Part shown: positions 29,330 to 35,046 of the stretch, one piece after another
How positions within the stretch are numbered: the stretch's first letter is position 1
How the letters are laid out: every line of letters begins with the position of its first letter
Assembly: GCF_021582875.1 (NCBI RefSeq)
Contig: NZ_CP091138.1
Coordinates: forward strand, 1,798,001-1,862,000
Direction: 5' to 3'
DNA length: 64,000 nt
Source: Microbacterium sp. KUDC0406
GTDB lineage: Bacteria > Actinomycetota > Actinomycetes > Actinomycetales > Microbacteriaceae
Notes under the pieces: generated by a model
Database searches by the model: none
What the model saw: the letters and a program-made list of their open reading frames with translations, nothing else
Told to the model about the DNA's origin: nothing
Position numbers and translations under genes: made by a program

Positions 29330-29727
29330 TCACCGATTCCACTGACGAAGCTTGTCCGGGTTGCATACCATCCAGATCCTCGAGATCAGGGCGGACCGGC
29401 CCTCGGCGGTCAGCACGGCGACGACCGTCTGTTCCCGAGCCAGGACCAGCCCCGGAACTCCGTTGACCGAGGCGATGGTGAACGTGGTTTCCGGAGCGGC
29501 GAAGGCGAGCAGCTCGGACGCGGTGTCGAACCGTCCCTCCAGGGGCATGGCCGGGGCGGGGTGCGGCCGCCGCCGTCGACGATCATGACGACATCGGGGT
29601 GAAGAAGGTCTCGAGCCGCGCCCTCGTCGTGAGAGAGCAGAGCGCCGGCAAGTCGTTCCAGCGCCTCGCGGTCAGCAGCATCGTGGCGTCGCCGGCGCAG
29701 CCACGCGGGGTGATGGCCTCGGCTCAT
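29330..29727 (-). CDS. Stand-alone SnoaL-like protein resembling the ECF41 sigma C-terminal domain (frameshifted)
   Basis: Intact product would be 132 aa. It aligns by eye along its length with the C-terminal domain of the sigma factor encoded just upstream: DVVMIVDGGGR versus DVVSYSDGNGA, then a GR/AF stretch, VNG, a TA-containing strand, and the ending NPDKLRQWN versus SPEKLSRLN. DGGGR and NPDKL are motifs known from ECF41 sigma C-terminal domains, and here the separate protein has them in canonical form. The ATG overlaps the sigma stop (ATGA), so translation is coupled. One base is missing near 29555 in a GC-rich run; the span is one base short. Role as a regulator of the sigma factor is inference. 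Confidence 0.75.
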
Positions 29728-30647
29728 GCGCCGACCGCGTTGAGCCGGCTGAGCTTCTCGGGACTCATGACCCAGAGCAGCTGGAGAATCCCTTCGCTCG
29801 ACGTCGTCGCCGTCACCAGCGTCGTGATCCGCCCCTCCTCCTCGAGCGTCGCCGCCGACTGCCCGTTCACGTGCACCCACTCGATCTTCTTGCCCGTCCA
29901 GAAGTGACTCGCGAACGCGGCGACGAACTTCGCCACCCGGCTGCGCCCGATCACCGGAATACGCGCCGCGAGTCTCGCACCGTTCCCGTCGCTGTAGCTC
30001 ACGACGTCGGCGGCGAACAGCGCTTCGAGTTCTTGGGCGTCGCCCTTCTGCGCCGCCGTCAGGAAGGCCTCCAGCAGATGACGCTGCGCAGCGGTGTCCA
30101 CCGGGGTGTTCCGGGGCGAGGACAGGTGCGCTCGTGCGCGGCTGACCAGTTGTCTGGCGTTCACGACGCTGCTGGAGATCACCTCGGCGATCCGTGGATA
30201 GGGGTAGTCGAAGGCCTCCCTCAGGATGTACGCGGCGCGCTCTGTCGGCGTGAGCCTCTCCAAGGTCAGAAGGATCGCGAACTGCAGCGCCTCGGCGCGC
30301 TCTGCTCCGAGGGCGGGATCGTCCTCGGTGTTGACCGGCTCCGGAAGCCACGGTCCGATGTAGGTCTCCCTGCGTGCGTGGGAGGATCGCAGCACGTTGA
30401 TCGCCAGGCGCGTCGTGATGGTCGTGAGGAAGGCCACGGGCTCCTGGATGCTCGTCCGATCGGTGTTCTGCCACCGGATCCATGTCTCCTGCAGGATGTC
30501 CTCCGCATCGGCGACAGTGCTCAGCATCCGATACGCGATACCGAAGAGATGCCGGCGGTGCGCGTCGAAGACCGCGAGCGCGTCGTCGAGATCGGCGCCG
30601 TCGTCGGTCGCAGAGGTGCGAGCGCGCTTCCCGTCGTCCATTCCCAT
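29724..30647 (-). CDS. sigJ: ECF41-type RNA polymerase sigma factor (SigJ-like) with fused SnoaL domain
   Basis: 307 aa. Sigma2 region HRRHLFGIAYRMLSTVADAEDILQETW, sigma4 region LERLTPTERAAYILREAFDYPY, joined by a linker carrying WLPEP, the hallmark of group ECF41. The C-terminal SnoaL/NTF2-like domain (about 200-307) takes the place of an anti-sigma factor in this group and modulates activity. Here its usual DGGGR and NPDKL motifs are altered (DGNGA, SPEKL). It is the second gene of an operon NmrA1-sigJ-SnoaL; the intergenic gap to NmrA1 is three bases. ECF41 factors recognise TGTCACA-N16-CGTC promoters, and close matches lie nearby. Confidence 0.9.
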   Translation of the reverse strand: MGMDDGKRARTSATDDGADLDDALAVFDAHRRHLFGIAYRMLSTVADAEDILQETWIRWQNTDRTSIQEPVAFLTTITTRLAINVLRSSHARRETYIGPWLPEPVNTEDDPALGAERAEALQFAILLTLERLTPTERAAYILREAFDYPYPRIAEVISSSVVNARQLVSRARAHLSSPRNTPVDTAAQRHLLEAFLTAAQKGDAQELEALFAADVVSYSDGNGARLAARIPVIGRSRVAKFVAAFASHFWTGKKIEWVHVNGQSAATLEEEGRITTLVTATTSSEGILQLLWVMSPEKLSRLNAVGA

Positions 30648-30650
30648 GAC

Positions 30651-31421
30651 CTATCGCGCTCCGACGAGGGCGCGGCGGCCCTGGTCGTGCACCCAGGACT
30701 CGAGTGTCGTGGCCGCGACTCGCATCGGCTCCCTCGGCAGCAGGAGGTCACCGGAGATGTTGAACCCGACGGGCGCCGTCGCGTCGTCGTCGACGACGTA
30801 GCGCGGGTCGTGATCGCGCCGCAGAACGCGACGCACGAATTCGGGAAGCGCCATCCTCTCCGGACCGGCGAAGTCGAAGGCGTCGTTGAGAGGATGCCCC
30901 AGCGCGAGTTCCGCGAGAGCGCCGGCGACGTCGGATGCCGCGATGGGCTGCACGTGTTTCGACGGGAGGTGCACCGTGTCCTCCTTCGTGTTCCATTCGG
31001 CGATCCTGCGTGCGAAGTCGTAGAACTGGGTTGCTCGCACGATGGAGAATCCGGTCGACCCTGCCTTCACCAGGTCTTCCTGTGCGCCCTTCGCGGCGAA
31101 GTATCCGTCATCGGTCACGCGATCCGCCCCGACGATCGACAGCACGATGTGATGCCTCACGCCCGCCCGCGCTTCGGCATCCAGGAGGTGGCTGGTCGAG
31201 TCCTCGAAGAAGCGACGCGCCGCGGCGCCCGAGAGGTCAGGAGTGTTGGTCGCGTCCACCACGGCATCGGCGTACTCGAGCGCGGCGTCGAGCCCCTTCC
31301 CCGTCGTCGCGTCGACTCCCGTACTCGGCGATGCCACGACCACCGCCTGAGCTCGTCGCTGCAACTCCTCGACGACCATTCGCCCCACCTGGCCGGTTCC
31401 ACCCGCCACAACGATCCGCAT
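30651..31421 (-). CDS. NmrA-like NAD(P)-binding protein, paralogue 1
   Basis: 256 aa atypical short-chain dehydrogenase. The nucleotide-binding loop is VVAGGTGQVGR at the N-terminus; VLSIVGADR and GFSIVRATQFYDF are shared with two further paralogues in this locus. It lacks an obvious YxxxK pair (YFAAKGAQEDL is the nearest), so NAD(P) sensing or reduction of an unknown substrate are both possible. First gene of the operon with sigJ, with an ECF41-type promoter about 60 bases upstream. ECF41 loci commonly carry such oxidoreductases. Confidence 0.87.
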   Translation of the reverse strand: MRIVVAGGTGQVGRMVVEELQRRAQAVVVASPSTGVDATTGKGLDAALEYADAVVDATNTPDLSGAAARRFFEDSTSHLLDAEARAGVRHHIVLSIVGADRVTDDGYFAAKGAQEDLVKAGSTGFSIVRATQFYDFARRIAEWNTKEDTVHLPSKHVQPIAASDVAGALAELALGHPLNDAFDFAGPERMALPEFVRRVLRRDHDPRYVVDDDATAPVGFNISGDLLLPREPMRVAATTLESWVHDQGRRALVGAR

Positions 31422-31479: not shown

Positions 31480-31506
31480 GACCGCGCAGCCCGTCGAACT
31501 GTGACA
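31480..31506 (-). promoter_or_regulatory. ECF41-type promoter of the NmrA1-sigJ operon
   Basis: TGTCACA (31506-31500 on the minus strand), exactly 16 bases, then GGTC (31483-31480). Differs from the published ECF41 consensus TGTCACA-N16-CGTC at one base. Makes sigJ autoregulated. Confidence 0.7.
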
Positions 31507-31607: not shown

Positions 31608-32350
31608 TCATGCCACGGTCGGCTGCGGATTCGCGACGTACGCCCTGCCCGCCGAGGCGATGACCTCGGCGACGATGTCGGGATGGGACACGGGCGTCGC
31701 GTGGGATGCGCCGGCGATCTCCCGCGTGCCCCGCGATGCGGCGCGCTCGGCACCGGCACGCAGCACCGCGACCGGGATGTTCAGGTCCTGATCGCCGAAC
31801 ACGTGCCATGACGGGATGCTCTTCCATGCGGGGTTCGGTGCGGACACACTGTCCGAGAGCGCAGCCTCGGTGACCGGCCGCTGAGTGGCGGCCATGAGCG
31901 CTGCGACCTCTGCCGGGACGTCGGCGGCGAACTGGTGGTGGAACACCTCCTGCCGGATTGCGAACTCGTTGCCCCCGTTGCCACGGGGTATGCGGCGAGC
32001 GCCTCGCCGAGAGTGCTGCCGGGCTCGCTGGTGGACAGTTCGAAGGCGCTCTGGCCCGTCTCCGGGACGAAGGCGGATACGTAGACCAGTCCGATGACGG
32101 CGGTGCTGTCCGCCGCGGCCTCGGTGATGACGAGACCGCCGTAGGAGTGACCGACGAGGACGACGGGGCCGTCGATCGAGGCGATCACGTCGCGGACGTA
32201 TGCGGCGTCTCCGGCGAGACTGCGCAGCGGATTCGCGACGGCGACTGCGGTGACTCCGTGGCTCTGCAGCCGTTCGATGACGCCGTTCCAGGAAGCGGAC
32301 TCCGCGAACGCGCCGTGGACGAGGACGATGGTCGGTCTCTGATCGGTCAT
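31608..32350 (-). CDS. Alpha/beta hydrolase (frameshifted)
   Basis: Intact product would be 247 aa. VLVHGAFAESASW gives the oxyanion region, GHSYGG the nucleophile elbow with the catalytic Ser, and the C-terminal ASHATPVSHPDIVAEVI the likely catalytic His. Resembles esterase/haloperoxidase-like hydrolases often seen next to ECF41 or TetR regulators; substrate unknown. A one-base deletion near 31981 (GTGGCAACGGGGG where GTGGCCAACGGGGG keeps frame) splits it, and the span is one base short. Has its own ECF41-type promoter upstream. Confidence 0.8.
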
Positions 32351-32435
32351 GATCTTCTCTCTTGTCGGGTGTGACTCGGATCGGGCCCCGACCGCACGCG
32401 GTCGCGTGCGGTCATGCAGAGGCCCTTGCAGACAA

Positions 32436-32462
32436 GACCGGGCAGCCCGGGCGACTGTGACG
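32436..32462 (-). promoter_or_regulatory. ECF41-type promoter of the hydrolase gene
   Basis: CGTCACA (32462-32456 on the minus strand), 16 bases, GGTC (32439-32436). One mismatch in the -35 relative to the other three sites in this locus. Confidence 0.6.
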
Positions 32463-33364: not shown

Positions 33365-33391
33365 TGTCACACCTGTCGGCCTCGCCCGGTC
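33365..33391 (+). promoter_or_regulatory. ECF41-type promoter of NmrA3
   Basis: TGTCACA (33365-33371), 16 bases, GGTC (33388-33391), about 55 bases before the NmrA3 ATG. Same spacing as the other three sites, which argues against chance. Confidence 0.7.
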
Positions 33392-33445: not shown

Positions 33446-34201
33446 ATGGCAAAGATCGTCGTCATCGGAGGCACCGGCCTCATCGGGTCCAAGGTCGTCG
33501 CGAAGCTGACCGAACACGGCCACGAGGCCGTCGCGGCCTCACCGAACACCGGCGTCAACGCCGTCACGGGTGAGGGTCTCACGGAGGTGGTCGAAGGCGC
33601 CTCGACGGTCGTCGACGTCTCCAACTCCCCTTCTTTCGCACCGGATGACGTGCTCGAGTTCTTCACGACCTCGACCCGGAATCTGATCGATGCCGAGCGC
33701 ATCGCCGGAGTCACCCACCACGTCGCCCTCACGATCGTCGGCACCGATCGTCCGCAGAGCATCCCCTATTTCGCGGCGAAGGTCGCTCAGGAAGAGCTCA
33801 TCCGCGAGTCCGGCATCCCCTACTCGCTGGTCCACGCGACGCAGTTCTTCGAGTTCGTCGGCAGCATCGCCGACATCTCGACGAAGGACGACAGGGTCTT
33901 GCTTCCTGGAGCGCTCATCCAGCCGATCGCGGCCGAAGACGTCGCAACCGCCGTTGCGCGTGCGGCTGCCGGCGCTCCTACCGGCGACGTCGAGATCGCC
34001 GGTCCCGAGGCCTTCGGAATGGACGAGTTCGCACGTCGCGCACTGTCCTTCCGCGGCGATTCGAGGACCGTTGTGCGCGACGACAGCGCGGCGTACTACG
34101 GCGCGCAGATCGAGGAGCGCACGCTCATCCCTCTCGACGGTGCTCAGATCTTCGGAACAACTCTGGCGGAGTGGCTTCCGCTGAACCCGCCACGCCGGTG
34201 A
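33446..34201 (+). CDS. NmrA-like NAD(P)-binding protein, paralogue 3
   Basis: 251 aa. IVVIGGTGLIGSKVV, VVDVSNSPSF, HHVALTIVGTDRP and YSLVHATQFFEFVGSI match paralogue 2 closely, so the two plus-strand genes look like a recent tandem duplication, while paralogue 1 is more distant. The frame is open back to 33008, but the ATG at 33446 has AAAGGG upstream and begins the family homology. Convergent with the AraC-type gene. Confidence 0.87.
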   Translation: MAKIVVIGGTGLIGSKVVAKLTEHGHEAVAASPNTGVNAVTGEGLTEVVEGASTVVDVSNSPSFAPDDVLEFFTTSTRNLIDAERIAGVTHHVALTIVGTDRPQSIPYFAAKVAQEELIRESGIPYSLVHATQFFEFVGSIADISTKDDRVLLPGALIQPIAAEDVATAVARAAAGAPTGDVEIAGPEAFGMDEFARRALSFRGDSRTVVRDDSAAYYGAQIEERTLIPLDGAQIFGTTLAEWLPLNPPRR

Positions 34202-34256
34202 AAGGTGGCCTCGGCCCGGCCGGCGACTCCGGTTCCGGTGCCCGTCCCGCGCGACG

Positions 34257-35046
34257 TCAGACGCCGTCCGCGGGCCGGGACGCCGTCCGGTAGGAGGACG
34301 GCGAGAACCCGAGCACGGTGCGGAAGTCGGTGCTGAGGTGCGCGTGATCGGCGTAGCCGAACTCCGCCGGCGACTGCGGCCAGATCCGCGGAGGGATCGG
34401 TGCGCATCCGTTCGGCGGCCTCCTGCAGGCGCCGGCGGCGGATCATCGCCGCCGGCGGCAGACCCACGTGACGGTGCACGACTCGCTGCAGGGTGCGCAC
34501 CGAGACGGACAGGCGCGCGGCCGCCTCCTCCGGCGAGCGCACGTCGGTCGCCATGAGCAGATCCGCCGCGGCGTTCGCCAGCCGTGCGGCATCCGTCGGC
34601 TTCCCGGCCCTTGCGAGCATCCACTGCGAGAAGACGGCGACCGCGCGCTCCCGGCGCCCGTCGCCGCCCGCCATGGCTGCGACGACGCCGTCGAGGAGCG
34701 CGGTATCGCTCAGTGCGATCTCCTGATCGAGGAGGGATGCCGGGTCTCCGGTCAGCGCGACGACCGCGGCCGGCCGCAGCAGGGCGCCGACCGCCCAGCC
34801 CCGGCCGGCGAGGTCGCGATGGGTCGCTCGCGTCGTCGCGCCGACCAGCGAGACACCACTCGGCTCGACGACCAGGTTCAGAGCCGGGTACGCGACGACC
34901 TCCTGGCGAGACGAACGACCGGGCTGGATGTCCCACTCCGGGATCCAGAACCACACGACGAGGTCCGCGACCTCCGCGGGCGCGGGAAGACGGTGGAACT
35001 CGGGGAGCCGGGCCGGATAGAGCACGCCGCGGGTGGGATCGACCAT
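34257..35046 (-). CDS. AraC family transcriptional regulator (frameshifted)
   Basis: Intact product would be 262 aa. N-terminal sensory domain with the DUF6597-like pattern (VADLVVWFWIPEWD, GVSLVGATTRATHRDLAGRGWAVGALLRP), C-terminal double helix-turn-helix (AARLSVSVRTLQRVVHRHVGLPP, then EFGYADHAHLSTDFRTVLGF). One base is inserted near 34368 (GCCGGCGGAG where GCCGCGGAG keeps frame); the span is one base over. Divergent from the VOC gene, which is the likely target. Stop at 34257-34259. Confidence 0.82.

Follow-up and report, generated by a model that had tools for sequence, protein, structure and literature searches.

The locus: a sigma factor gene and an overlapping partner gene

The DNA that we analyzed, referred to here as the window, is a stretch of 64,000 nt from Microbacterium sp. 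KUDC0406 (GCF_021582875.1, NZ_CP091138.1, positions 1,798,001 to 1,862,000 of the forward strand). A presumed operon on its minus strand begins with a gene at 30651–31421 for an NmrA/epimerase-like NAD(P)-binding protein (PF13460 NAD_binding_10, 42.2 bits). NmrA/epimerase-like neighbors, as found around the sigma gene of the window, are the kind typical of ECF41, whose genes lie near those for carboxymuconolactone decarboxylases, oxidoreductases or epimerases. The sigma gene follows at 29724–30647 (minus strand) and encodes an ECF41-type sigma factor of 307 aa with a sigma2 region, a WLPEP linker, a sigma4 region and a fused SnoaL-like domain. It scores above the cut-offs of TIGR02957 (SigX4; 336.8 bits, cut-off 323.25) and NF007214 (SigJ; 287.5 bits, cut-off 271). 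Among the Pfam models, sigma2 and sigma4 were matched, and SnoaL_2 fell just below its cut-off (26.7 against 27).

The WLPEP motif, described for the sigma2–sigma4 linker of ECF41 factors (PMC3426412), is present in the window sigma as YIGPWLPEP at 30336–30362 (minus strand). The C-terminal extension is present too, and the motifs expected there, DGGGR and NPDKL, read DGNGA (29976–29990, minus strand) and SPEKL (29751–29765, minus strand). NPDKL is reported to connect the ECF41 C-terminal domain with the linker motif (PMC7730460); DGGGR is the earlier note’s name for a motif, and it does not appear in the available text of PMC3426412 or PMC8999054. SigJ, which is also an ECF41 protein and whose structure is solved, has DSNGK at this position, so DGNGA lies in the normal range and is no clear sign of decay. 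A structure model of the sigma factor (mean pLDDT 81.0) has a folded fused domain with pLDDT mostly above 90; its pTM of 0.50 means that the packing of the domains in the model is not reliable.

Downstream, at 29330–29727 (minus strand), lies what we call the partner gene, which in congeners encodes a free-standing ECF41 C-terminal domain. Its start overlaps the stop codon of the sigma gene by 4 nt (ATGA). DGGGR is found in a first frame at 29563–29577 and NPDKL in a second frame at 29348–29362, both on the minus strand. The motif readings of the earlier note are thus correct for both proteins, and so is its claim of an ECF41-type sigma gene followed by a stretch resembling the ECF41 C-terminal domain, given the matches to TIGR02957 and NF007214. 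The single small protein that it described is another matter: the stretch is 398 bases long, which is not a multiple of three, and the two motifs had been joined by eye. The frame opened by the ATG loses register just past DGGGR, around 29560, and the second half of the gene is the ORF at 29548–29330. With this frame shift, no intact partner protein can be read in the window. Both pieces match the ECF41 models (TIGR02957/NF007214) in their C-terminal part, and both have dN < dS relative to the partners of loci L039 and L002.

Frame changes in the window

A codon-usage scan of the 64-kb window found nine places where the frame changes within a gene, on the same strand and without a stop (8348, 13494, 19075, 22613, 31980, 36180, 39852, 41043 and 50705). 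As a control, 182.6 kb from 49 congener loci gave three, two of them at the same place. In-gene frame changes are therefore roughly eight to nine times denser in the window, in a comparison that is rough: the short partner gene went unflagged, and the control loci were selected and lie around the same locus. This density suggests an indel-prone assembly. One of the nine positions falls in an alpha/beta-hydrolase gene at about 31608–32352 (minus strand), which is split in two frames, with Abhydrolase_6 positions 1–121 matched in one and 129–217 in another. A gene for an AraC-type regulator (DUF6597 and HTH_18; 34144–35046, minus strand) may be frame-shifted too, as its HTH match ends at position 53 of 80. 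The completeness of the window genome is 96.12; 30 of the 34 congeners compared have 99 or more.

The excess of frame changes suggests assembly error or recent loss. The break in the partner gene probably stems from an indel in the assembly or from a loss that is very recent, and an assembly indel is more likely than an old loss. A genuine loss in this strain, as opposed to an assembly error, seems improbable. Absence of or damage to the partner at six other loci (L005, L008, L109, L126, L127 and L133) would fit a real loss, but the density of frame changes, the similar split in the neighboring hydrolase gene and the completeness value all argue against it.

The partner in related genomes

Sigma matches with an E value no higher than 1e-60 were present in 84 of 366 Microbacterium genomes. 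The sigma counts are based on loci L001 to L189 (n = 189), where L001 is the window. We counted distinct sigma rows with a sigma core of at least 200 bits and a nearly complete fused domain; there were 100 of these, or 98 after the duplicates L118 and L175 were dropped. A row was excluded if its fused domain was short or broken, which removed L049 and L086 although the partner is intact in both. Rows with no partner and fewer than 420 bases downstream were excluded as well.

The window sigma belongs to a clade of 78 rows (support 96), 71 of which have a partner. Seventy-six of the 78 are from Microbacterium, and a partner match accompanies 69 of these. Microbacterium sp. M28 has a protein with exactly the sequence of the L002 partner, and all 13 of the named loci with close partners come from records of Microbacterium. 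At the place of the partner, congeners have one intact ORF of 122–153 aa in the counted set, mostly 130–140. Two of the 69 Microbacterium matches have a broken frame: that of the window and that of L043, where the break is close to the N-terminus.

The earlier note had described the partner gene as coupled to the sigma gene, and the relatives support this. Beyond the 4-nt overlap in the window, 65 of the 69 Microbacterium pairs have a partner reading frame that stays open from the stop codon of the sigma gene onward (48 with ATGA, 17 with GTGA); the exceptions are L001 (the window), L043, L067 and L076. Because seven Microbacterium rows with no counted partner also have ATGA or GTGA at the sigma stop, the overlap string proves nothing by itself, and it is the open partner frame that does. 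Among the seven sigmas of the 76 with no counted partner, there was no partner match at L005, L008 or L126. L109 has a short remnant, L127 a 45-bit fragment and L133 pieces in two frames. At L144 a partner is on the other strand.

Outside the genus, adjacent sigma–partner pairs occur in at least nine of 396 genomes of the order, a lower bound from candidates selected among the matches listed. Seven are from the same family (G720, G513, G499, G594, G652, G662 and G634) and two from another family (G453 and G630).

We estimated selection from 30 partners in seven groups of close relatives, keeping pairs with an identity of 70% or more and a dS of 0.05–1.5. In 23 pairs dN/dS was 0.11–0.39 (median 0.28), indicating purifying selection. 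Where partner and sigma were compared side by side, in eight pairs, dN/dS was 0.11–0.32 for the partner and 0.07–0.10 for the sigma. Judged by its sequence, the partner is a working protein that evolves faster than the sigma factor.

Several related ORFs were seen along the way. At L089 (661–1899, minus strand) the partner ORF continues without a stop into the NmrA-like gene that follows it, giving one frame of 413 aa. Free-standing SnoaL-like ORFs also form a second lineage, a divergent one, with members at L181 (3537–4056, minus), L183 (1841–2360, plus), L184 (1823–2378, plus), L185 (1715–2357, minus) and L100 (1356–1827, plus), all in strand coordinates. They measure 157–214 aa from stop to stop, four of the five end in an HWN motif, and those of L181 and L183 are near a sigma–partner pair. 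ECF41 paralogs with a shortened fused domain lie at L130 (1455–2100), L142 (1419–2208) and L143 (1356–2109), again in strand coordinates, with open frames of 215, 263 and 251 aa, respectively. The first two adjoin a paired sigma, and all three resemble published hyperactive truncations.

Relationship and origin of the partner

NF007214 (SigJ) and TIGR02957 (SigX4) were both matched by all 60 intact partners that we scanned. Positions are available for one of these, the first member, whose matches cover positions 172–289 of 293 and 167–279 of 281, which is the C-terminal part. SnoaL_2 was reached by 12 of the 60 at E up to 0.01. Partner and sigma profiles aligned with an hhalign probability of 99.2 over 128 columns, and the partner of L002 is 27% identical to its own sigma over 109 aa. 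By sequence, the best PDB match of the partner is SigJ (E 1e-11).

The structure model of the L002 partner has an NTF2-like fold (pLDDT 87.6). Foldseek placed SigJ at ranks 4 and 7 and SigG1 at rank 25; its other matches were designed NTF2 proteins and ketosteroid isomerases. VIA-align placed SigG1 first, and SigJ, though listed by Foldseek, was absent among its best 50 entries. In the partner alignment D51, W119, P124 and K126 are invariant and G53, N123, L127 and W130 nearly so; the ECF41 motif positions are among them. The earlier note had placed the small protein in the ECF41 C-terminal domain family and had named membership in an unrelated SnoaL clade as the result that would count against it. 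The profile matches and the SigJ hit indicate that the partner is a member of the ECF41 C-terminal domain family and of no unrelated SnoaL clade.

The same note had seen in the partner a detached copy of the ECF41 C-terminal domain. In a tree of 90 domains, the partners and the fused domains of the window clade fall into two separate groups (SH-aLRT 98 and 96, respectively). The partner thus appears to be an old lineage and no recently detached copy; recent duplication of the neighbor’s own domain is unsupported. The tree is a subset of 135 rows, in which every second partner was kept and 13 rows were omitted. Seven of the omitted rows are free-standing (a divergent lineage of five, a fragment, and a sigma’s own out-of-frame domain) and six are fused domains that are fragmentary or odd. 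Constraining the partners and the window-clade fused domains to group together gave a log-likelihood 3.09 higher (p-AU 0.589), so an older origin common to both is compatible with the data. Since this joint grouping is no worse, we withdrew our own suggestion that the partners attach to canonical ECF41 domains and not to the window clade. In the 135-row tree the free-standing label needed three changes.

Candidate promoters

The published ECF41 promoter, found before the sigma gene or its neighbor, is TGTCACA-n16-CGTC (PMC3426412). A strict TGTCACA-CGTC pattern occurred at only one of the loci listed (L181) and was rejected; the form found in its place was GTCACA-N15-CGGTC. Three sites of this form were found in the window by pattern search, and they lie within 2 kb. 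One candidate ECF41-like promoter (31480–31505, minus strand) lies upstream of the NmrA, sigma and partner genes, a second (32436–32461, minus strand) upstream of the frame-shifted alpha/beta-hydrolase gene, and a third (33366–33391, plus strand) upstream of an NmrA-like gene that starts at 33446. These sites resemble the published promoter but have GGTC/CGGTC and not CGTC at −10.

Shuffled windows had a mean of 0.46 matches, and two of 100 reached three. In the whole genome a slightly stricter pattern gave eight matches, against four for a reversed control, so it is only the cluster of sites that stands out. Within 1.3 kb upstream of the sigma gene, a site on either strand was present in 50 of 76 clade loci; the reversed pattern was present in none of the 76. 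Four loci (L004, L040, L054 and L058) have back-to-back ECF41-like promoters between the sigma gene and a divergent NmrA-like gene.

Distribution of the NPxKL motif and the linker

We compared sigma and partner at the asparagine of NPxKL in 81 pairs. In 63 the partner has it and the sigma does not, so that 63 of the 71 partners whose sigma is without it carry it. The reverse holds in nine pairs, from seven genomes of three related genera plus G330 and G142; in those three genera the partner deviates from both motifs and the sigma does not. The residue is missing on both sides in eight pairs (the two genomes of the other family and six Microbacterium pairs) and present on both sides in one (G254). 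Fisher’s test gives p = 8e-7 for this table if kinship is ignored. However, the tree holds only one independent contrast for the exchange, which allows no statistical test, and kinship can explain the table. Reciprocal motif loss was therefore rejected as a statistical result.

Among relatives with no counted partner, the sigma has the asparagine at L013, L135, L136, L139, L140 and L141 and is without it at L010, L011, L012, L138 and seven loci of the window clade. At L010–L012 no partner was found within 1.5 kb on each side, and the sigmas still are without the residue. In the sister groups, WLPEP is replaced by WLP(S/T/A)P in at least one sigma each of L082, L134–L136 and L138–L143. This changed linker is found in several sigmas that carry NPxKL, two of which are accompanied by a partner (L082 and L134). 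The rows listed for the window clade retain WLPEP, apart from L133 (WSPEP).

Proposed function of the partner and alternatives

Homology to the ECF41 domain together with coupling to the sigma gene makes a trans-acting regulator of the ECF41 sigma factor our leading reading, and it is also the simplest account of a free NPxKL protein made along with a WLPEP/SPxKL sigma. We would give an even chance to the proposal that the partner is a free-standing ECF41-domain protein of the NTF2/SnoaL fold that acts in trans on the sigma factor encoded before it. Its binding, sign and signal we infer as follows. The partner would bind the sigma, most probably with its NPxKL end at the sigma2–sigma4 linker (WLPEP) and/or by pairing with the fused SnoaL-like domain. 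It may then restrain the sigma until a small ligand or a partner protein releases it. Whether it would act as inhibitor or co-activator is the least certain step, because both positive and negative roles are reported for the fused ECF41 domain: in Ecf41Bli, partial deletion of this domain made the factor about 20-fold more active, and full deletion abolished activity (PMC3426412).

The observed support for a trans-acting regulator consists of homology, coupling, conservation, purifying selection and the ECF41-like promoters, along with the retained WLPEP linker of the sigma and the asparagine in 63 of the 71 partners whose sigma is without it. Against it stand the seven of 76 clade sigmas with no counted partner, the sigmas of L010–L012 with neither the asparagine nor a partner nearby, the reversed motif pattern in three related genera, and the changed linkers in sigmas with NPxKL. 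Moreover, the sigma retains its own folded domain, so a second copy may be unnecessary.

The partner might instead serve the regulon as an accessory enzyme or as a ligand carrier, with an NTF2 fold like that of ketosteroid isomerase or SnoaL, which shares a substrate with the NmrA-like reductases and makes no contact with the sigma. We consider this unlikely. The fold is common to ketosteroid isomerases and limonene epoxide hydrolases, the partner often lies between the sigma and an NmrA gene, and the partner ORF of L089 continues into an NmrA gene, all of which would fit this reading. By sequence, on the other hand, the partner is related to the ECF41 sigma domain (SigJ/SigX4 are matched by 60 of 60 partners, SnoaL_2 at E up to 0.01 by 12 of 60), and its conserved residues include the positions of the ECF41 motifs.

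A narrower form of the trans-acting regulator, which does not exclude the general one, is a handover: in Microbacterium the fused domain would have lost its contact with the linker (NPxKL to SPxKL) and the free protein would supply it, which implies that the sigma is regulated only together with the partner. The earlier note had likewise suggested that function may have moved from the fused domain to the separate protein. The 63 of 81 pairs with the asparagine on the partner alone fit this, as does the Fisher p value with kinship ignored. The nine reversed pairs, the eight with the residue on neither side and the one with it on both do not, nor do L010–L012, where the residue is gone and no partner was found nearby; and with one independent contrast, kinship suffices to explain the table. 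Taken together, the pattern is only suggestive of a shift from the fused to the free domain, and a handover in this specific form seems doubtful to us.

A further idea, which we consider improbable, is an asymmetric two-part ECF41 system, in which the fused and the free NTF2-like copies pair and only one of them needs NPxKL. Lineages would then have made opposite choices, the free copy in Microbacterium and the fused copy in the related genera. If true, a regulatory domain once fused to a sigma would here have given rise to an anti-sigma factor.

Finally, that the partner is a non-functional remnant of a second ECF41 gene is very improbable and, given its conservation, largely refuted: the broken frames of the window and L043 and the remnant in L109 point that way, but the partner is intact in most counted relatives, with a median dN/dS of 0.28 and a frame open from the overlap in 65 of 69 pairs, and even the window pieces keep dN < dS.

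Comparison with known systems

Classical ECF anti-sigma factors such as RsrA and RsiW are encoded beside the sigma gene, often on the same transcript. The partner gene is likewise next to the sigma gene. In contrast to these factors, the partner has a predicted NTF2-like fold, and none of 60 partners gave a match to a Pfam anti-sigma domain at E up to 0.01.

Set against the ECF41 group (Ecf41Bli, Ecf41Rsp and M. tuberculosis SigJ, 5XE7), the window sigma is a member and the partner is homologous to the fused domain, with the Asp-x-Gly-Gly and NPxKL positions mostly retained in Microbacterium. The NmrA/epimerase neighbor of the window locus fits this group as well, and the candidate promoter resembles that of the group. 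What sets the locus apart from ECF41 as described (PMC3426412) is that it encodes a second, separate copy of the domain and that the −10 element reads GGTC/CGGTC in place of CGTC. In its available text, that founding study concluded that a second protein seems uninvolved and knew of no inducing condition (PMC3426412). Our literature search found no description of a free-standing ECF41 domain; it did not cover subscription literature, and an earlier description is possible. A conserved and naturally separate copy makes the role of the ECF41 domain directly testable in trans. ECF41 is a widespread sigma group, and the partner would show how regulators fused to a sigma and free anti-sigma factors can interconvert.

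A similar system is that of the ECF56 factor SigG1 and RsfG in Streptomyces tsukubaensis, where a sigma with a fused SnoaL_2 domain also has a separate, co-transcribed 17 kDa binding protein (PMC7730460). It differs in that SigG1 belongs to another sigma group and is described without NPDKL, and RsfG, which we compared by its description, without a conserved Pfam domain (PMC7730460). A search of 198 genomes with a piece of SigG1 found relatives in 37 (best identity 63%), and in the 14 loci examined no gene was assignable to RsfG. SigG1–RsfG is, as described, a precedent for a sigma factor with a fused SnoaL_2 domain and a separate small binding protein (PMC7730460).
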